From Desulfurobacteriaceae bacterium (GTDB taxonomy: Bacteria > Aquificota > Aquificia > Desulfurobacteriales > Desulfurobacteriaceae), in NCBI GenBank assembly GCA_027051905.1, contig JALUGO010000007.1:1-64000 (forward strand): 64,000 nt of DNA, read 5' to 3'. The translations under genes were made by a program, and so were the position numbers. Within the stretch, counting starts at the first letter, position 1. Every line of letters starts with the position of its first letter. Below are positions 3,213-11,856 of the stretch, piece after piece. The notes under the pieces are model-generated. The model was not told the DNA's origin. It was given only the letters and a program-made list of their open reading frames with translations, and did no database searches.

Positions 3213-3241
3213 TTGACATGTAAAATATTAGAGGCTAAAAT
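3213..3241 (+). promoter_or_regulatory. sigma-70-type promoter for the octaheme cytochrome gene
   Basis: TTGACA at 3213-3218, a 17-base spacer, and TAAAAT at 3236-3241. The -35 is a perfect consensus match. It lies about 40 bases before the start codon at 3283. I see no clear FNR-type TTGAT-N4-ATCAA site around it. Confidence 0.8.
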
Positions 3242-3282
3242 CTATTTCTGAATAGAATACCACTCTTATGAAGGAGGGAAAC

Positions 3283-4659
3283 ATGAAGGGGAAGCTCAGC
3301 AAGCTTCGCACAGGGCTGCTTGCTGTAACCTTCGCTGCAGCAGCAGTGATTGGTCTTAATACTACCGATTCTCAAGCAGCCCTGAGAAACATCTCCAAAG
3401 AGTCTCAAGCGTGCCTTGGCTGTCACAAAGGAATGAACCCTGCTCTCGTTCAGCAGTGGGGTGTCAGCAAGCACGCTGAGGCTGGAGTTGGCTGTTACGA
3501 GTGTCACATGGCCAACAAGGGCGACAAAGACGCCTTCCAGCACTTTGGATTTACAATCTCCACAATCGTATCTCCTCTCGACTGTGGAAAATGTCACCCC
3601 AAAGAAGAGAAAGAGGTTACAGAATCCCACCATGCAAAGGCTGCTCAGTTCGTAGGTTCTCTTGACAACGTTCTCGGAAGAATCGTTGAGGGTGAGCCTC
3701 TCTTCAACCTTGGTTGTGCGCAGTGTCACGGTAGAACAATTCCTGTTAAGAACGGAATGCCCGTTCTTGGTCCATGGCCTAATGAAGGTGTAGGTAGGGT
3801 TAACCCAGACGGCTCCAAGGGTAACTGTGCTGCTTGCCACTACAGGCACAGCTTCAGCCTCAAGCAGGTTCGTGAGCCCGACATGTGTGGTAAGTGTCAC
3901 CAGGGTCCCGACCATCCACAGATTGAAATCTGGTCTCTCTCTAAGCACGGTATCGCTTACAAGGCTCACAAGTCTGAAATTGAGCAAACACTTGACAGGG
4001 CTAAGTGGGTTCTCGGAGAGGACTACTACCAGGCACCAAACTGTGTAACATGTCATATGGGAGCTTCTGTAACAGGTGCTAAGGCTACTCACGATGTTGG
4101 AGCAAGGCTCTCCTGGACACTCCGTCCGCCAATCTCCAAGCACAAGCCTAACTGGCAAGCTAAGCGTGCTGAGATGAAGAAGGTTTGTGCTGCTTGCCAC
4201 CAGAGGGTATGGGTAGAAGGTTTCTACTACCAGTTTGACAACCTCGTAAACCTCTACAACACCAAGTTTGCAATTCCTGCTAACAAGATTATGAAGTTCC
4301 TTAAGAGCAGGAAGCTCATCGATCCAACACCATTCAACGAGAAGATCGAGTGGACATACTTCCTCCTCTGGCACCACGAAGGACGTAGGGCACGTCACGG
4401 TGCTTCTATGATGGCTCCCGACTGGACACACTGGCATGGTCTTTTTGAAGTTGCTGAAAGGTTCTACTTTGAACTTATCCCTGAAGCTGATGAGATCGTT
4501 AAGGAGAAGGGTTCCAGGGCTGATAAGAAAGCCTGGGCTGAGTTCAAGAAGCAGCTCTTCAGCAAACCTGAGCACAAGTGGTTCAAAGGTATGCCAAAGT
4601 CTGAGCTCAGGAGGATTGCTGAGTTTTACATGAAGCGTTACGGACAGACTGCTCAGTAA
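3283..4659 (+). CDS. octaheme c-type cytochrome, hydroxylamine oxidoreductase family (probable nitrite-to-ammonium or hydroxylamine enzyme)
   Basis: A 458-residue exported protein with a signal peptide ending near residue 32 (DSQA) and exactly eight CxxCH sites (CLGCH, CYECH, CGKCH, CAQCH, CAACH, CGKCH, CVTCH, CAACH). Spacing and the late motif RRARHGASMMAPDWTHWHG place it in the HAO family rather than among octaheme nitrite or tetrathionate reductases. With nap genes beside it, it most resembles the reductive HAO of nitrate-ammonifying thermophiles, thought to take nitrite through hydroxylamine to ammonium. ATG at 3283 is chosen because AAGGAGGG precedes it; ATG at 3268 would put that Shine-Dalgarno inside the gene. 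C-ending codons are frequent, suggesting high expression. Confidence 0.87.
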   Translation: MKGKLSKLRTGLLAVTFAAAAVIGLNTTDSQAALRNISKESQACLGCHKGMNPALVQQWGVSKHAEAGVGCYECHMANKGDKDAFQHFGFTISTIVSPLDCGKCHPKEEKEVTESHHAKAAQFVGSLDNVLGRIVEGEPLFNLGCAQCHGRTIPVKNGMPVLGPWPNEGVGRVNPDGSKGNCAACHYRHSFSLKQVREPDMCGKCHQGPDHPQIEIWSLSKHGIAYKAHKSEIEQTLDRAKWVLGEDYYQAPNCVTCHMGASVTGAKATHDVGARLSWTLRPPISKHKPNWQAKRAEMKKVCAACHQRVWVEGFYYQFDNLVNLYNTKFAIPANKIMKFLKSRKLIDPTPFNEKIEWTYFLLWHHEGRRARHGASMMAPDWTHWHGLFEVAERFYFELIPEADEIVKEKGSRADKKAWAEFKKQLFSKPEHKWFKGMPKSELRRIAEFYMKRYGQTAQ

Positions 4660-4675
4660 TTTTGCTATCATTTCA

Positions 4676-4700
4676 GGGGGAGCTCCGTCTCCCCCTTTTT
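4676..4700 (+). terminator. intrinsic terminator after the octaheme cytochrome gene
   Basis: Stem GGGGGAG (4676-4682) pairs with CTCCCCC (4689-4695) around a six-base loop and is followed by TTTTT at 4696-4700. It lies 16 bases after the cytochrome stop codon. It contains a GGAGCTCC octamer (4679-4686). Confidence 0.85.
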
Positions 4701-4724: not shown

Positions 4725-5630
4725 TTGAGAAAAACCTTAATTGCCCTTCTAATAGCTGCCCTTTCTGTTTCTCCCTCTTTAAAAGCAAAAGAGGCAGAAT
4801 TTGCAAAAAAAATTGAGAAGAAAATTACATGTCCTGCAAGTTTCTTAAACAATCCTCCGGTTTATTTTTACTGTATTTATAGAGACTACCACAATCACAA
4901 ATATGATGAAGGTATAGAAAAAGCAAAAAAAGCACTAAAAGAAATAGAACCTCTTCTAAAGGAAAATCCAGACGGGATGGTTCCGAATGCTGTTCAGAAG
5001 AACGCAAAATTGAGAGATCCCCACGTAAAGTCTGTTGCTTCAGACCTCCACCTGCTTTTGGGAATGCTTTATTTCAAGAAGTCTGTTAATATGGATAACT
5101 CTTCAGTAAAAAAAATTTATGCTGATTTCTTCTCAAAACTTGAAAAGAAGGGATTTGATTTCTTTCAGATAAGTGAACTCATGAATTTATACAGTAAGAA
5201 AAAACTGTTTCCTGAGGAATTTTCAAAGCAGGATGAGAAGAAGTATTCTGAGCTTTTAAAGAAAATGGGGCTAAAAGAAAGTGATTTGGATAGACTTATG
5301 GTTGATGCTCAGAAAGAGTCTAACAGGCTGGAGAAAGAGAGATTCTCATACATGCAAAAGGCTGTAAAAGAGTTCCAGGAGGCTGTAAAGATAGATCCTA
5401 ACAACGCTATGGCTTACTATCAGTTAGGTAATCTTTACAGTGGCGTTTTAAGTGAAGGAATGCCTCAGGATTCCCCTGCCGCTGAGGAAGCATACTACAG
5501 AGCTGCTGTTCTCTTAAAAGAGCAGGGGGATATGGCTGGATACAGGGAAGTTGTTAAAAAGTTAAAGATCTTGAATCCCAATTCCGAATACCTTAAAAAG
5601 TTGAAAGAGAAGAGCGGAAGGGATGCTTAG
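4725..5630 (+). CDS. exported TPR-repeat protein of the hao-nap island
   Basis: A 301-residue, lysine-rich, mostly helical protein with an N-terminal signal peptide (MRKTLIALLIAALSVSPSLKA). A tetratricopeptide-like stretch lies near residues 220-255 (AVKIDPNNAMAYYQLGNLY), and another helical pair, LHLLLGMLYFKKSVN, is at about 105-120. I do not recognise a characterised family. TTG at 4725 is chosen because GGAGGT at 4715-4720 precedes it and a signal peptide follows directly. It overlaps the next gene by 8 bases. Position between the octaheme enzyme and napC suggests a periplasmic assembly or docking role for multihaem cytochromes; that is inference. Confidence 0.65.
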   Translation: MRKTLIALLIAALSVSPSLKAKEAEFAKKIEKKITCPASFLNNPPVYFYCIYRDYHNHKYDEGIEKAKKALKEIEPLLKENPDGMVPNAVQKNAKLRDPHVKSVASDLHLLLGMLYFKKSVNMDNSSVKKIYADFFSKLEKKGFDFFQISELMNLYSKKKLFPEEFSKQDEKKYSELLKKMGLKESDLDRLMVDAQKESNRLEKERFSYMQKAVKEFQEAVKIDPNNAMAYYQLGNLYSGVLSEGMPQDSPAAEEAYYRAAVLLKEQGDMAGYREVVKKLKILNPNSEYLKKLKEKSGRDA

Positions 5631-6123
5631 GTTTGTTCTGCCTTTACTTGTTTCTCTCTTTTTCATATCCTGTGGGGGAACCCAGCAGAGAGTTTCTATA
5701 AAACCTCTTCTTACCTCTCAACCATCACCTTTAGACAGGAAGATTTCAGGTGGGGGACCACAGGAGCTCCCCGTTTCTTCCCCCATTAACCCTGAAAAAC
5801 TTGACCTCTGCACTCGCCATATACTCTTTGCGGATCAGTATATTACAGCTTCAGATTATCCTGGAGCAGCTGAAGAGATAAAAGAGGCAGAAAAATACTG
5901 CTCTCCAGATGATCCCCGTCTTATCTACATGAAAGCAGTTCTTGCAGACATAAATGAAAATAAAAGTAAAGCATATAAACTCTACTACCGTGCTGCCAGG
6001 AAGTATATAGAAAAAGGGGACTTTGACAGTGCTTTTAAGTGTTACTCAGGTATGGTTTCTATAAATCCAGATGGGAAAGAAGTAAAAGAACTTAGAGTTT
6101 ACTTCGAGGATGATAACTATTGA
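5623..6123 (+). CDS. TPR-like lipoprotein of the hao-nap island
   Basis: A 166-residue protein with a lipoprotein signal peptide: a hydrophobic run followed by the lipobox FISC, with Cys near residue 17. After a Pro/Ser-rich linker, residues about 60-155 form helical pairs resembling two to three TPR repeats (YPGAAEEIKEAEKYC, DFDSAFKCYSGMVSINP). The ATG overlaps the end of the preceding TPR gene, so both proteins are probably made together. Membrane anchoring plus TPRs suggests a scaffold for the periplasmic electron-transfer proteins encoded around it. No named family recognised. Confidence 0.65.
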   Translation: MLRFVLPLLVSLFFISCGGTQQRVSIKPLLTSQPSPLDRKISGGGPQELPVSSPINPEKLDLCTRHILFADQYITASDYPGAAEEIKEAEKYCSPDDPRLIYMKAVLADINENKSKAYKLYYRAARKYIEKGDFDSAFKCYSGMVSINPDGKEVKELRVYFEDDNY

Positions 6124-6148
6124 AAACTGAATAGATTTCTGGTAAAAT
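6120..6148 (+). promoter_or_regulatory. promoter for napC-napM-napA with extended -10
   Basis: TTGAAA at 6120-6125 overlaps the stop codon of the upstream lipoprotein gene. After 17 bases comes TAAAAT at 6143-6148, preceded by TGG (6140-6142), an extended -10. The napC start lies about 50 bases downstream. Confidence 0.7.
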
Positions 6149-6175: not shown

Positions 6176-6199
6176 AGACTCTAATAAAAGGGGGTGGAA

Positions 6200-6763
6200 G
6201 TGACGGAGAAGAGAAAGGCATTTATAGTAGGTGGTATTGTTGGTATCGTTATTGCAGGAGTTGGAGCCCTGATTTCTGCTCAAATGATCGAGAACACGGC
6301 AGAGCCTGAGTTCTGCGGTTCATGCCATGAGATGAAACCTATGTTTGAGGCTTGGGAGTCAGGTCCTCATGGTCCACTTGGTAACAAGAGAGGGGCTATC
6401 AGAGCTGGTTGTGCTGATTGCCACTTGCCCCATACCAGTGTGGTAGCATATTTACTTAATAAGACAAAGTTTGGAACGAACGATGCTATTGCACACTTCT
6501 TTAAAGGTGGTTATGCCGACGATCTTGACCACTGGATTGAGAAGAGAAAGGAAAGAGACCACTACGTCTTTGTTTCCAACTGCGAGAGGTGTCATACAAA
6601 CCTTCCTGACAATGTTATGCATGAAAAACTCAAGTCGGGAGAAATTAAGGGGGACTGTCTTACCTGCCACTGGTATGTTGGTCACGGGTTTGACTTTGAA
6701 GGGAAATTAAAAGAATTTTTTGGCAAGAAAGAGGTAAAATCTGAAGGAGAAGGGCACGAATAG
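6200..6763 (+). CDS. napC: NapC/NrfH-family tetrahaem quinol dehydrogenase
   Basis: Membrane-anchored cytochrome that oxidises menaquinol and passes electrons to periplasmic reductases. One N-terminal membrane segment (about residues 7-30) is followed by four haem sites: CGSCH, CADCH, CERCH and CLTCH. The 187 residues match the NapC/NrfH family. GTG at 6200 is preferred because AAAGGGGG precedes it at a normal distance; GTG at 6194 is also in frame. It is followed by napM and napA, so it may feed NapA directly or also serve the octaheme enzyme, as NrfH-type proteins serve nitrite reductases. Confidence 0.9.
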   Translation: MTEKRKAFIVGGIVGIVIAGVGALISAQMIENTAEPEFCGSCHEMKPMFEAWESGPHGPLGNKRGAIRAGCADCHLPHTSVVAYLLNKTKFGTNDAIAHFFKGGYADDLDHWIEKRKERDHYVFVSNCERCHTNLPDNVMHEKLKSGEIKGDCLTCHWYVGHGFDFEGKLKEFFGKKEVKSEGEGHE

Positions 6764-6786: not shown

Positions 6787-7203
6787 GTGAAAGTGAAAAC
6801 GTTATTGCTGCTTGCCGGCCTGATGATAGCCGGAAGCGGGCTGGCAATGGCAGACCAGCACCCAGTTCCACCCAGCGTCATTCAAAAATTACCCCCTCAA
6901 CAGCAGCAATGTAGAGCCTGTCATCAGCAGACAACACCAAAAGTTTACGAGCAGTGGGCCCATTCAAAACACGCTATAGCAAACGTTCGCTGTTTCCAGT
7001 GTCATGGAACACTTGGGAACTTCCATAAGACTCCACCTATAAAGAAGTGTATGGCCTGCCACTATCAAGAAGTTGTAACCATGCAGAAGAAGAAACCAGG
7101 CTTTAAGTGCTGGGATTGCCACGAAGCTCACATCTTTGAGTTCCATGGTAACGGTGTGAAGAACATTAAGTCAGCTAAGGACTTTAACCCACAACAGTAT
7201 TAA
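6787..7203 (+). CDS. napM: periplasmic tetrahaem cytochrome NapM
   Basis: A 138-residue secreted protein with a signal peptide ending near residue 22 (GLAMA) and four haem sites: CRACH, CFQCH, CMACH and CWDCH. Size and position directly before napA match NapM, which replaces NapB as electron donor to NapA in several ammonifying bacteria. GTG start at 6787 with GGGGAGGT upstream. There is no NapB-like dihaem gene in the cluster, which supports a NapC-NapM-NapA path. Extra His residues between the motifs could be distal haem ligands. Confidence 0.85.
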   Translation: MKVKTLLLLAGLMIAGSGLAMADQHPVPPSVIQKLPPQQQQCRACHQQTTPKVYEQWAHSKHAIANVRCFQCHGTLGNFHKTPPIKKCMACHYQEVVTMQKKKPGFKCWDCHEAHIFEFHGNGVKNIKSAKDFNPQQY

Positions 7204-7217
7204 TTAAGGAGGGCACG

Positions 7218-9863
7218 ATGGGAATTGGAAGGAGAGAATTCCTCAAAAAGAGTGCTGCTCTAACAGCAGCATCTCTTGTGGGGATTAACCTTAAGATAAA
7301 AGGAGACGGAGTAACCCTTGGAGAGTCTGCATCTGCAGGCGAAAACCTTATGAGAATACCTGAAGAGGTTAAGAAGTCTCCCGCTTTTAAGAAGGAAGGG
7401 GGATATACCTGGGTAAGGGGTGTATGCCGTTTCTGCGGAACAGGTTGTAAGGTCTGGCTTGGTTTTAAAGATGGTAAGCCTGCAGTTATAAGGGGTGAGA
7501 AAAATTCTGCCATCAACTTTGGTTTTCTCTGTATGAAAGGAATGCTCTTTTACAAGATCTTCAGGCACCCAGACAGGCTTACACAGCCTCTCTACAGGAA
7601 GAGCAAGAAAGAGCCTTTCAAGCCAATTTCCTGGGAGAAGGCCTATGAGATTATTGCTGATGAGATGATCAAAGCTATTAAGAAGGGTGAGTGGACACCG
7701 TTTGGATGGTCTGGAATTGCCTACTACGGTTCCGGACAGGCTCTAACAGAGGAGACATACCTCTTCCAGAAGCTCTTCAGGTGTATCGGAACAAACCACG
7801 TTGAGGGTAACCCAAGGCTCTGTATGGCATCTGCAGTTGGCGGATACCTCACATCCTACGGAACAGACGAACCAGCTGGTGGATACGCAGACTTTGATAA
7901 AGCCCAAACAGTGTTCATCATCGGTTCAAACACTGCTGAGTGTCACCCGATCCTCTACCGTCGTATCATGCACAACAAGCTCAAGAATCCCGGCGGTTAC
8001 ATGGTAATTAACGTTGACCCCAGGGTATCTCCTACATCAAAGATTGCAGACATTCATATGCAGTTTAAGCCGGGAACAGACCTTGCTCTTCTTAACGCTA
8101 TCGCCCACGTAATTGTTAACGAGGGACTTTACGATAAGGAGTTTGTGAGCAAGTACTGTTCCTTCCATATCTTTACAAAGGGTAAGGATAAAGTTCCTCT
8201 TATTGGACACGAAGTTTCCTTTGAAGAGTATAAGAAGTTCCTCCAGAAATACACACCTGAGTATGCTGCCCAGATCTGTGGTGGAAACATCACGCCGGAG
8301 ATGATCCGTAAAGTTGCAAGGCGCTTTGCTACAACAAGAACTGTTTCCATCTGGACAATGGGTCTCAACCAGAGAACCCGTGGTGTATGGGTTAACAACC
8401 TCGTTACAAACCTCCACCTCTTAACAGGAAACATCTGTAAAGATGGTGCAGATGCCCTTTCACTTACAGGTCAGCCAAACGCCTGTGGTGGTGTTCGTGA
8501 AGGTGGTGGACTTTGTCACATCCTTCCAGGACACAGGGTTGTTAAGAGTAAAGCTGACAGGGAAAGCCTTGAGAAAATCTGGGGAGTGCCAAAAGGGACT
8601 ATTCCTCCAAAGCCTGGATACCACACTGTTAAGATGTTCTCCGCTATCTCTTACACAGAGCAGGACAGGAAGAGATTTCCAGGCCTCAAGCCTATCCATT
8701 TTATCTGGATTGAGGAAACCACACCGCTGCAGTCTCTCCCTAACGTTAGAAGGTTCCGTGAAGGATTTGCAAGGGATGACGTTTTCGTAGTTGTTAACGA
8801 GATATTCCCAACAAGGACAACAGAGTTTGCAAACCTGATTCTCCCAACACCGTTCCACTTTGAAAAGACAGGTGTTTACGGATGTACAGAACGTCGTTCA
8901 CAGTTAACTCCTGTTGCAGTTAAAGCTCCTGGCATGTGTAAGCCTGAACTCCAGATCATCGTTGAGTTTGCCCAGGTTCTTGCTAAGAAACTCAGAAGGG
9001 AGCGTGATCCGAAACTCCGTGCAAGGGCACACACTGTTTACCAGTGCGTAGCTCCGTTCATTGAAGCTGCCAAGAGAGACCCATGGTGGGAGCTCCCCAA
9101 AGCTGTTTGGACAGAGTATGCTCAGCATGTAACTAAAGGAAGAGACTCTACACTTGCCGGTGCTACATATGAAGTTCTTCTTGAAAGGCCAGACGGTGTT
9201 CAGTGGCCTGCACCAACTGTTGAAATTGCAAGGAAGGGAGGAACCCTTAGAAGGTTTGTTGTTGGGAAAGACCCACTTGCTACAGAGTTTGTCAAGAAGC
9301 ATGGACTTGAAGGCTGGAAAGTTGTTGACTACGGTCACCTCCATAAAGACCACAAGTTCTGGATCTGGCTCAGACCTTACAAGGGTCCTGCTGAGCCACC
9401 AGATGCTGAGTATCCGTTCTACCTGTCTACAGGTAGGGTTATTGATATGTGGCACTCCGGTTCTATGACTGGTCGTATCCCGGAGCTTGCCTCCGACTAT
9501 CCGTACGCCTGGGTTGAGATTAACCCGAAAGACGCTCAGCGTCTGGGTATCAATCCTGGTGATCTTGTCCTTGTTGAGACACGCCGTGGAAAGAACATCC
9601 TTCCCGCAAGGATCTCCACTGACGAAGGTCCGATGGAAGGAATGGTCTTCGTCTATTGGTACGACCAGCACAAGGACAGAATGATTAACTTCTGTACGCT
9701 TGACGCCTTTGACCCAGGCTCCAAGCAGCCTGAGTTCAAGATCTGTGCATGCCGCATCAAGAAATACGCTCCTGCTCAGCCACTCAAGCAATACCTCGTT
9801 AAGCTCGTCAAGGTTAAAGGTGGCTACCTTCACAACGCTGAACTCGATCCTAACCAGAAGTAA
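7218..9863 (+). CDS. napA: periplasmic nitrate reductase catalytic subunit
   Basis: Molybdenum bis-MGD enzyme reducing nitrate to nitrite. The N terminus carries a twin-arginine signal (GRREFLKK at residues 4-11). The [4Fe-4S] cysteines are in CRFCGTGCK (about 71-78) and GFLCMKG (about 105). The likely Mo-ligand cysteine is in the NPRLCMASA segment near residue 200. The 881 residues fit NapA with a few lineage insertions. It sits 14 bases after napM with an AAGGAGG site and ends at a strong terminator. NapD, encoded downstream, should bind the Tat signal, and TatA/TatC are encoded at 19.1-20.1 kb. Codon use resembles the octaheme gene and suggests strong expression. Confidence 0.95.
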   Translation: MGIGRREFLKKSAALTAASLVGINLKIKGDGVTLGESASAGENLMRIPEEVKKSPAFKKEGGYTWVRGVCRFCGTGCKVWLGFKDGKPAVIRGEKNSAINFGFLCMKGMLFYKIFRHPDRLTQPLYRKSKKEPFKPISWEKAYEIIADEMIKAIKKGEWTPFGWSGIAYYGSGQALTEETYLFQKLFRCIGTNHVEGNPRLCMASAVGGYLTSYGTDEPAGGYADFDKAQTVFIIGSNTAECHPILYRRIMHNKLKNPGGYMVINVDPRVSPTSKIADIHMQFKPGTDLALLNAIAHVIVNEGLYDKEFVSKYCSFHIFTKGKDKVPLIGHEVSFEEYKKFLQKYTPEYAAQICGGNITPEMIRKVARRFATTRTVSIWTMGLNQRTRGVWVNNLVTNLHLLTGNICKDGADALSLTGQPNACGGVREGGGLCHILPGHRVVKSKADRESLEKIWGVPKGTIPPKPGYHTVKMFSAISYTEQDRKRFPGLKPIHFIWIEETTPLQSLPNVRRFREGFARDDVFVVVNEIFPTRTTEFANLILPTPFHFEKTGVYGCTERRSQLTPVAVKAPGMCKPELQIIVEFAQVLAKKLRRERDPKLRARAHTVYQCVAPFIEAAKRDPWWELPKAVWTEYAQHVTKGRDSTLAGATYEVLLERPDGVQWPAPTVEIARKGGTLRRFVVGKDPLATEFVKKHGLEGWKVVDYGHLHKDHKFWIWLRPYKGPAEPPDAEYPFYLSTGRVIDMWHSGSMTGRIPELASDYPYAWVEINPKDAQRLGINPGDLVLVETRRGKNILPARISTDEGPMEGMVFVYWYDQHKDRMINFCTLDAFDPGSKQPEFKICACRIKKYAPAQPLKQYLVKLVKVKGGYLHNAELDPNQK

Positions 9864-9871
9864 TTTGTTTG

Positions 9872-9904
9872 GGGAGGGGCTAAAAGCCCCTCCCTTTTAT
9901 TTTC
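9872..9904 (+). terminator. intrinsic terminator after napA
   Basis: Perfect nine-base-pair stem GGGAGGGGC (9872-9880) / GCCCCTCCC (9886-9894) with loop TAAAA, followed by TTTTATTTT. It splits the nap genes into two transcription units. Confidence 0.93.
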
Positions 9905-9953: not shown

Positions 9954-10325
9954 ATGCCTATTGTGAGTTGTGTGGTTACTACTCTTCCTGAAAAGGGAAA
10001 AGAGGTAGAGAAAGAGCTTTTAAAAATTCCAGGTGTTGAAGTTTACGGAGGAGGTATTAAGGAGGAGGAAAACGCTTACCATATAATTGTTGTTCTCGAT
10101 GCTGAGCGTTATGCTGAGCTTGAGCAGATGGAAAAAGATATAAAGGCCATTGATGGCGTTCTTCAGCTTGCTGTCGTTGAGGCTCACTTCCTTGAGGAGT
10201 TTGAAAAGATAGAGGAAGGAGAAATTTACCCGATTAATCCATTTAGAGGACTCAGAAAGGCTGAAAAAGAGGCGGAAAGAGCTTGGCTTGGAGAAGATGA
10301 AAATGGAGAAAAAGAAGTTCATTAA
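9954..10325 (+). CDS. napD: NapD, chaperone for the NapA Tat signal peptide
   Basis: A 123-residue cytoplasmic protein. Its first 80 residues match the small NapD ferredoxin-like fold: N-terminal MPIVSCVVTTLPEKG, a GVEVYG strand, and ending in a GVLQLAVVEAHF strand. NapD binds the twin-arginine leader of NapA and holds it until the cofactor is inserted. The charged C-terminal extension (about residues 85-123) is longer than in enteric NapD. The gene overlaps napG by about 23 bases. Confidence 0.88.
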   Translation: MPIVSCVVTTLPEKGKEVEKELLKIPGVEVYGGGIKEEENAYHIIVVLDAERYAELEQMEKDIKAIDGVLQLAVVEAHFLEEFEKIEEGEIYPINPFRGLRKAEKEAERAWLGEDENGEKEVH

Positions 10326-10980
10326 AGAGAGAAGGCAATTTTTAAAAGTAACTCTTGGAACGTTTCTGTCGGGGGCTTTGACCTCTTGCGATCTTTCAAG
10401 GTTTAAAAATCCAAAAACAATGGTTAAATCACCTATTGGTCCAAATATCTTAAGGCCTCCTGGAGCGGTTTCTGAGGAGCATTTTGCTCAAAAGTGTATT
10501 CGTTGTGGTAGATGTGGAGAGGTCTGTCCCTATCACTGTATAAAGTATTTTGATATTAAGACGGGCGGAGTTTTTTCCGGAACGCCTTACGTTAATGTAA
10601 TGGAGAAGCCCTGTTACTTATGTATGAAATGTGTTTACGTATGTCCTACAGGTTCTCTTGTTCCGTGTGCGAAGGAAGACGTTAGGATGGGTGTTGCTGT
10701 AATTAACAGACAGATATGTGTGACCTGGCAGCAGCAGAAAACAGGACTTATGTGTAAAACATGCTTCTCTGTCTGTCCGTTTTCTGGAGTGGCTATAAAA
10801 ATTGACCATGATTTCAGGCCTTACATTGTTGAGGAATACTGCACAGGTTGTGGTATATGTGCTTATTCCTGTATAGCTGATACCTGGTATGAAAATAAAG
10901 GTAAGAAGGCAATAACTATAATGCCTATTAAGTGGAAGAAGATTAAGGAAATCAAGTTAGAGGACATTAAGAAATCCTAA
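10303..10980 (+). CDS. napG: NapG ferredoxin-type quinol-pathway protein
   Basis: Periplasmic iron-sulfur protein that works with NapH to move electrons from quinol toward NapA. It begins with a twin-arginine motif (ERRQFLK, about residues 10-16). Four cysteine clusters follow: CIRCGRCGEVC, CYLCMKCVYVC, CKTCFSVC and CTGCGICAYSC, enough for four [4Fe-4S] centres. The Tat leader ends in LTSC, which fits a lipobox, so the mature protein may be lipid-anchored. Start is uncertain among TTG 10288, ATG 10297 and ATG 10303; I prefer 10303 for Shine-Dalgarno spacing. Confidence 0.9.
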   Translation: MEKKKFIKERRQFLKVTLGTFLSGALTSCDLSRFKNPKTMVKSPIGPNILRPPGAVSEEHFAQKCIRCGRCGEVCPYHCIKYFDIKTGGVFSGTPYVNVMEKPCYLCMKCVYVCPTGSLVPCAKEDVRMGVAVINRQICVTWQQQKTGLMCKTCFSVCPFSGVAIKIDHDFRPYIVEEYCTGCGICAYSCIADTWYENKGKKAITIMPIKWKKIKEIKLEDIKKS

Positions 10981-10992
10981 AGAGGTGATAAG

Positions 10993-11856
10993 TTGGCCAG
11001 GAAGAGTTTCTGGAAAAGGATAACAATCTGGCGTTACCTTTTTCTTGCAGTCTGTTTTGTTATTGTTGTTGGAAACCCATTTACCAATTACTACTGGGAT
11101 ATAAACTTCATTCAGGGTTGGTTTCAATCGATAGGAGTGGGCAATTTATGGATTGTTTCTCCTCTTGAGGGTGTAGAATCGATACTTACAGCTAAGTTTT
11201 TCTACATGCCTTCTCTGGTTGGAATGGTTATTCCTGTTACCGTTGCTCTACTTATGGGAAGGGTTTTCTGTAGCTGGATGTGCCCTATTGAGTTCCTTTC
11301 ACTTTTGACGGATAAAATATTCGGGCTAATTCCTAAATGGGGAAATAAACTCAAATACAGACCTGACCTCATCCGTTTACCAAAGAGGTTTCTCTGGTTT
11401 GCTCTTGTTGCAGAGCTTCTCTTTACGATGATAATCGGTTACCCCCTCTTTGTCTGGTGGTCACCACCGGGTCTTGTTGGAAGGGAGACTATGTTTTACG
11501 TCTTCTACAAGCATGTAACCATCGAAATTGTAATTGTTATTCTGGTTCTTCTTCTCAATCTTCTGACACGTAGGCTCTTCTGCCGTTATTTCTGTCCTCT
11601 TGGGGCAACGCTTGCTTTGCTCGGTAAAAAGAGGCAGCTTGTTATCCACTACGATGCGTCTAAGTGTGTAGGCTGTAAAGTTTGTGATACGAGATGTCCT
11701 ATGGGTATTAAACCAAGCGTTGGTGAGAGCCAGACTGTTTACTGCTGGAACTGTGCCGAGTGTGTTGACGTCTGCCCCACAAATGCTTTGAACTTTACCT
11801 GGAGAGATAAAGGAGTTTTAAGGGTTACTCCGGGAGTGGTTAAGGTAAATGATTAA
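10993..11856 (+). CDS. napH: NapH membrane ferredoxin-type quinol oxidase subunit
   Basis: A 287-residue inner-membrane protein with about four membrane helices. Two membrane-side cysteine motifs are CSWMCP (about residue 92) and CRYFCP (about 198). Two C-terminal [4Fe-4S] motifs follow: CVGCKVCDTRCP and CWNCAECVDVCP. This is the NapH layout. It is thought to oxidise menaquinol and pass electrons to NapG. TTG start at 10993 with GAGGTG upstream, 12 bases after napG. No napF or napB gene is in the cluster. Confidence 0.92.
   Translation: MARKSFWKRITIWRYLFLAVCFVIVVGNPFTNYYWDINFIQGWFQSIGVGNLWIVSPLEGVESILTAKFFYMPSLVGMVIPVTVALLMGRVFCSWMCPIEFLSLLTDKIFGLIPKWGNKLKYRPDLIRLPKRFLWFALVAELLFTMIIGYPLFVWWSPPGLVGRETMFYVFYKHVTIEIVIVILVLLLNLLTRRLFCRYFCPLGATLALLGKKRQLVIHYDASKCVGCKVCDTRCPMGIKPSVGESQTVYCWNCAECVDVCPTNALNFTWRDKGVLRVTPGVVKVND

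Follow-up and report, generated by a model that had tools for sequence, protein, structure and literature searches.

Two exported TPR proteins encoded behind an octaheme HAO gene: a candidate low-dose assembly pair in hot-vent bacteria

The window, a stretch of 64,000 nucleotides, comes from a draft genome of 1.36 Mb (G000; 30 contigs, 84% complete) belonging to an order of hot-vent bacteria that includes Thermovibrio and Desulfurobacterium. The locus under study lies on the forward strand and comprises, 5′ to 3′, hao, a hairpin, TPR1, TPR2, napC, napM, napA, a second hairpin, napD, napG, napH, and a gene for a small cytochrome c. The hao gene (3268–4659), assigned by motif count and HAO-family similarity, encodes an octaheme HAO-type cytochrome with eight canonical CXXCH motifs, and a pattern scan places a sigma-70-like putative promoter, TTGACA-17-TAAAAT, 5′ of it (3213–3241). 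A predicted intrinsic terminator or attenuator (4675–4696) separates hao from TPR1 (4725–5630), the TTG-initiated gene of an exported TPR protein of 301 amino acids, which overlaps by 8 bases TPR2 (5623–6123), the gene of a 166-residue TPR lipoprotein with an invariant Cys17; both assignments draw on Pfam, conservation, and structure models. A second promoter-like site (6120–6148) overlaps the TPR2 stop codon and may serve the genes from napC onward. These comprise napC (6194–6763), coding for a NapC/NrfH-family tetraheme quinol dehydrogenase, napM (6787–7203), coding for a multiheme cytochrome, and napA (7218–9863), all three recognized by family profiles, followed by the second conserved terminator hairpin (9871–9895) in the napA/napD gap, by napD (9954–10325), and by napG and napH (10288–11856), the latter two also recognized by family profiles. 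NapD is a dedicated chaperone of NapA, with a ferredoxin-like fold and a cytoplasmic location.

The original prediction placed a secreted TPR protein and a TPR lipoprotein, overlapping by 8 bases, between the octaheme gene and napC, and the coordinates, the signal peptide, and the lipobox all agree with it. The reading frame of TPR1 also opens at TTG 4662, but the Shine–Dalgarno sequence (GGAGG) and the signal peptide fit the TTG at 4725 instead. Across the 15 genomes that carry the pair, TPR1 starts chosen by these same two features are TTG in 11, ATG in 3, and GTG in 1, the overlap measures 8 bases in 12 of 15 loci, and the lipobox cysteine of TPR2 is invariant (15/15). Identity to the proteins of the window falls to 29% for TPR1 and 25% for TPR2, yet synonymous changes greatly outweigh changes in the proteins; this, together with their retention in 15 genomes, shows that both are real genes. 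Three Pfam TPR models score above cut-off for TPR1, the TPR matches of TPR2 stay below it, a few weak non-TPR matches accompany them, and neither protein scores above the cut-off of any NCBIfam model. The triad D54-Y55-H56 of TPR1 is invariant, and a heme-binding motif scan of the 15 TPR1 sequences found no CXXCH. Besides the lipobox residue, TPR1 and TPR2 each have two conserved cysteines that occur in an identical set of 13 genomes and are missing from the same 2, so the two genes switch subtype jointly; a disulfide role for these residues is a guess. In G116 and G117 the TPR1 profile gave two matches to TPR2, on its C-terminal part, which hint at a common origin of the two proteins.

The structure model of TPR1 (mean pLDDT 87) displays a TPR groove and a helical insertion, the latter missing from the short TPR1 proteins of G120 and G114 (249 and 252 residues, versus 286–302 elsewhere), and that of TPR2 (mean pLDDT 81) comprises three helix pairs behind the lipobox cysteine. 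Fold searches returned peptide-binding and other TPR proteins for TPR1 (best 2xcc, Z 15.1, rmsd 2.0, 124 residues aligned) and many TPR domains for TPR2 (best Z 12.9, rmsd 3.0, 102 residues aligned), with low global TM-scores for both models in Foldseek. Since these matches are tied and generic, they assign neither protein to a family; generic TPRs dominate the profile and fold matches listed, among which there is no NrfG or CcmI chain.

The pair had been described as lying after a terminator with no obvious promoter of its own, and the hairpin at 4675–4696, 28 bases ahead of the TTG start, bears this out. A GC-rich hairpin with a T-run occupies the hao/TPR1 gap in all 15 loci (−12.8 to −24.3 kcal/mol), its stems varying in sequence between loci while the structure is kept, and the distance from hairpin to start, counted by eye, ranges from 15 (G114) to 39 bases (G132). 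That distance being too short for a usual promoter and leader, transcripts reaching TPR1 should have to pass the hairpin. A pattern scan of the region yielded 12 terminator-like sites versus 9.6 ± 3.7 in shuffled sequences and 12 promoter-like sites versus 11.0, no excess over chance in either case; the hao/TPR1 hairpin does exceed chance through its conservation in 15/15 loci, which are not independent because they are related to one another. When nine gaps were scored alike, this hairpin was recovered in 14 of 15 loci (in G131 it is present and was missed through an underestimated start), and the only other gap with a strong, GC-rich, conserved hairpin was napA/napD, at 15 of the 15 loci with both genes (12 with the TPR pair, 3 without). 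The TPR2/napC gap scored 2/14, weak and AT-rich (G114 skipped), and no hairpins were scored in napH/cytochrome (0/11), napC/napM (0/18), napM/napA (0/17), TPR1/TPR2 (0/15), napD/napG (0/15), or napG/napH (0/13). TPR2/napC and napH/cytochrome alone serve as fair long controls, and these two hold; the other five gaps mostly lack the room for a hairpin of this kind, which makes the support drawn from the comparison partly trivial. Sigma-70-like sites recur ahead of hao in 12 of 14 loci (match of at least 10/12; G121, whose hao is truncated at the end of a contig, left out) and ahead of napC in 11 of 15 (at least 9/12); they are not proof of promoters.

As had also been claimed, the pair is more AT-rich than its neighbors, with GC contents of 0.372 (TPR1) and 0.408 (TPR2) versus 0.501 for hao and 0.477 for napA. 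Among the 55 open reading frames of at least 150 residues in the window, TPR1 ranks lowest and TPR2 fourth lowest in GC, and fifth and first, respectively, in GC3. Synonymous differences between the genes of the window and those of G118/G116 amount to 0.33/0.33 for hao and 0.49/0.47 for napA, and to 0.76/0.86 for TPR1, 0.79/0.75 for TPR2, 0.80/0.79 for napD, 0.77/0.79 for napG, 0.69/0.69 for napH, 0.73/0.66 for napC, and 0.63/0.60 for napM. Such a jump past each hairpin would be expected where an abundant enzyme precedes scarce, weakly expressed helpers. Codon selection can be mimicked by recombination or by the history of a gene, since napC, which has no hairpin ahead of it, is high, and alr and prmA are low (down to 0.31 and 0.27 against G116). 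The AT-richness may be explained by weak expression, with little codon selection, as well as by foreign origin. A foreign-island origin of the pair was considered and tentatively set aside: napG, from this very cluster, likewise has a low GC content, both genes recur throughout the order, and weak codon selection suffices. In G115 (L130), where a sequencing error or a real break splits hao (10266–11641) over two frames, napA is 96% and each piece of hao at least 95% identical to the genes of the window, as against about 70% for TPR1, php, and alr, a contrast that suggests recombination.

The TPR pair occurs in 15 of the 24 genomes of the order, one full copy in each; 14 of the carriers lie among the 22 genomes of the window's family, and the remaining one is among the two that represent a second family. 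At E ≤ 0.001, TPR1 matched 23 of 136 Aquificota genomes (15 full relatives and 8 short generic TPR matches) and TPR2 matched 19 (15 full and 4 short generic), and a profile built from the 15 TPR1 sequences matched 47, the same 15 and 32 with weak TPR-repeat matches. Scanning GTDB contigs with this profile, seeded by two peptide motifs and hence liable to overlook distant relatives, returned 26 loci. Of these, 9 are full relatives, whose records bear the titles Thermovibrio, Desulfurobacterium, Desulfurobacteriaceae, or Aquificota MAGs, while the other 17 are generic TPR matches, 16 of which are confined to residues 184–290. Beyond the full relatives, only generic TPR matches were found, both in Aquificota outside the order and in this motif-seeded scan. 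A literature search, with subscription journals mostly outside its scope, found no description of these TPR genes.

Within the order, a related hao (at least 50% identity) is present in the 15 TPR genomes and G123, and napA (at least 75% identity) in the same 15 and in G127, G128, and G113. The genomes with the pair coincide exactly with those in which both hao and napA were seen; the two were seen together in none of the nine genomes without it (G113, G119, and G122–G128). The predicted co-occurrence with an octaheme HAO and napM holds in 15/15 TPR genomes, at the same locus, inside a single order, so that the independent events are few; homologues were found neither mostly away from hao and nap nor in a known unrelated family. 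This distribution bears on the view that the pair is a structural scaffold, in which TPR2 anchors TPR1 to the envelope and the two hold mature HAO near NapC or NapA, so that electrons or nitrite can pass between them. The exact match to genomes with both hao and napA speaks for such a scaffold, as do the nature of TPR folds as general protein binders, the lipoprotein character of TPR2, and the lack of the pair beside the HAO of G123, a 52%-identical protein whose gene adjoins napC, about 13 bases away with no hairpin between them, in a genome with no napA match. A scaffold, however, is usually needed in partner-like amounts, whereas this pair stands behind a conserved terminator, mostly with TTG starts, and gives no sign of codon selection; moreover, G127 has napCMADGH with another octaheme gene adjacent and lacks the pair. 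On balance, we consider a scaffold unlikely. In G123 (L142:5393-6899), a gene for a C_GCAxxG_C_C redox protein lies downstream of hao-napC.

The pair lies directly 3′ of hao in 15/15 loci, and napM comes next after napC in 15/15. On the other side of hao the genes vary by clade: the 5 genomes of the window's genus carry alr-prmA-php, 6 others have a different, divergent set, and in G129 and G135 a second octaheme gene and a small open reading frame stand before that divergent set (G114 and G121 left out). The hao-TPR1-TPR2 block is thus kept although its left flank is not. This order, retained over 15 genomes, runs counter to the idea of a lineage-specific pair of envelope proteins with no tie to HAO, kept by lack of rearrangement or imported. 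The extreme GC ranks and the restriction of full relatives to this order, as far as the Aquificota search and the motif-seeded contig scan reach, would suit such a pair, but its absence from the nine genomes that did not show hao and napA together and a hairpin link to hao conserved in structure rather than sequence would not, and we rate it somewhat less likely even than a scaffold.

On the 3′ side, napC directly follows the pair in 14 of 15 loci, which is what accessory factors of the Nap/NapC side, serving NapC or NapM assembly and adjoining hao by chance, would predict; in G114 (L140) the pair sits between two hao copies, about 52–55% identical to that of the window, the second of which intervenes before napC. 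napA is on the same contig in 14/15, whole or cut by a contig end, and in G134 the contig ends just past napM with a napA piece on another contig. Against a Nap-side role, 11 of 15 loci have a promoter-like site between the pair and napC, and nap genes with napC and napM occur with no TPR pair detected in G127, in G128 (whose contig carries napCMADG only), and in G113 (64% complete, its contig beginning just 5′ of napC). We regard this explanation as improbable.

We favor, at a probability of roughly 45%, the reading that TPR1 and TPR2 are two periplasmic assembly factors, made at low dose and dedicated to the octaheme HAO. A maturation role is favored because the place of the pair behind the hairpin parallels that of napD behind napA, because its presence tracks hao and nap, and because both products are exported TPR proteins, for which NrfG and CcmI provide a precedent (PMC12285233). 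The suggestion that the pair scaffolds or matures a multiheme complex stands in part: the layout ties it to hao and favors low-dose maturation, while the nap tie and the scaffold are disfavored. As for the limits of such a role, the octaheme class does not always need the pair, given the HAO of G123 beside napC without it, and no special heme attachment calls for a helper, the HAO having eight canonical CXXCH motifs. In the proposed mechanism, hao would be transcribed strongly from its own promoter and, judging from the conserved terminator, most transcripts would end at the hairpin behind it. The read-through fraction would yield a little TPR1, plus TPR2 through translational coupling at the 8-base overlap. 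By analogy with NrfG/CcmI, the TPR2 lipoprotein would anchor the pair to a membrane and the groove of TPR1 would keep apo-HAO unfolded, possibly gripping the C-terminal helix of HAO, during the attachment of eight hemes by ResB/CcsA, the System II synthase. TPR1 would afterwards release the protein for folding. Fed from quinol by NapC, the matured HAO would reduce NapA-derived nitrite to ammonium or hydroxylamine.

The heme-attachment machinery sets the pair apart from its closest precedents. Matches to PF01578 number one to three in 23 of 24 genomes, with a largest frame of 414 residues, and no frame of CcmF/NrfE size (the System I lyase) was found in the 24 genomes; in the window's genome ResB adjoins CcsA, as in System II. 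NrfG and CcmI serve CcmF/NrfE, and since only System II was found, the TPR pair is not NrfG/CcmI proper. As described in PMC12285233, NrfG and CcmI use their TPRs to bind NrfA at its C-terminal helix, are exported TPR proteins encoded with a multiheme nitrite-reduction cytochrome, and are proposed to hold the apo-enzyme during heme attachment. The present pair shares the periplasmic TPR domain (Pfam, signal peptide or lipobox, TPR models), the neighboring multiheme cytochrome gene, and the proposed hold on the apo-enzyme, but differs in a genomic background with ResB/CcsA, in comprising two separate proteins, one of them a lipoprotein, and in its presumed target, which has CXXCH only, whereas that of NrfG carries a CXXCK active-site heme. 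Like napD, TPR1 lies directly behind a hairpin that follows a catalytic gene and is weakly codon-selected; unlike NapD, both TPR proteins are exported, and their fold is a different one. In Wolinella, the octaheme cytochrome MccA has beside it a folding helper of its own in the periplasm, MccB, which is a peptidyl-prolyl isomerase and not a TPR protein; our literature search found no paper on MccB beside MccA. That the pair forms a new type of two-part, substoichiometric TPR chaperone, devoted to one octaheme nitrite reductase in System II hosts and dosed by terminator read-through like NapD, is a tentative extension, slightly less probable than the assembly role itself. Such a pair would offer a concrete, testable answer to the question, as we read the field, of how eight hemes are loaded into a single protein under System II without CcmI/NrfG helpers. 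The window's genome also encodes a second, small CcsA-like protein with a 227-residue partner (L182:1434-2790), adjoining what read from sequence as molybdenum-cofactor genes, moaC/mog-type and mobA-like.

The presumed client is itself of interest. With its eight CXXCH motifs and HAO-family similarity, the protein of the window finds its nearest solved chain in 4qo5 (E = 3.3e-45), followed by HAO 1fgj (E = 9.8e-15), and the 14 TPR-linked HAOs scanned among 19 octaheme proteins, a set that leaves out G115 and G121, have eight CXXCH each and no CXXCK. The lack of a cross-linking tyrosine would be a further mark of a nitrite-reducing HAO, the alignment to 1fgj covering that chain up to its residue 372. 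At E ≤ 1e-5, neither NrfA (PF02335; control detected in 1 of 14 known genomes, E. coli) nor the siroheme nitrite/sulfite reductase NIR_SIR (PF01077; control detected in 11 of 14) was found in the 24 genomes of the order, which makes the octaheme HAO the best candidate for the nitrite reductase of nitrate ammonification in the order, including Thermovibrio ammonificans, and this eight-heme enzyme probably turns nitrite into ammonium. For T. ammonificans, the main text of PMC5441870 describes napCMADGH, proposes NirA (Theam_1000), and leaves open how nitrite is reduced; when searched for the terms hydroxylamine, HAO, and TPR, it contained none of them. In our reading, the octaheme gene upstream is a better candidate for nitrite reduction than NirA, and the locus would point to the octaheme enzyme as the step that this text leaves open. 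A comparable arrangement is the reverse-HURM pathway of Nautilia profundicola, comprising HaoA, NapC/CycB, and Nap without a gene for an ammonium-forming nitrite reductase (PMC3701875, as far as its available text goes). Both share an octaheme HAO, a NapC/NrfH-type quinol dehydrogenase, and Nap, here with no NrfA or NIR_SIR detected; yet hao and napC/cycB of Nautilia lie apart by locus number (NAMH_1280 and NAMH_0559), in contrast to the hao-TPR1-TPR2-napC block, and the same portion of PMC3701875 mentions no TPR pair for Nautilia.

The last 28 residues of HAO form the stretch that differs most between the TPR-bearing G120 and the TPR-less G123 (1 of 396 stretches scoring as high, the tail itself), and this C-terminal tail is only an ambiguous lead as the TPR ligand, the tail of the TPR-bearing G114 (copy G114a) being equally different and the stretch having been picked after the alignment was viewed. 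On a tree of 19 octaheme rows (G115 and G121 omitted as broken or partial), the TPR label needs two changes, matched by 35 of 500 shuffles, and is weak because the branches are long. Between the second octaheme gene and hao of G135 (L131:11554-12054) lies a gene for an exported SurA_N-like protein, just under the Pfam cut-off, and an open reading frame of the same family occurs in G129 (L137); it is perhaps another dedicated folding helper.
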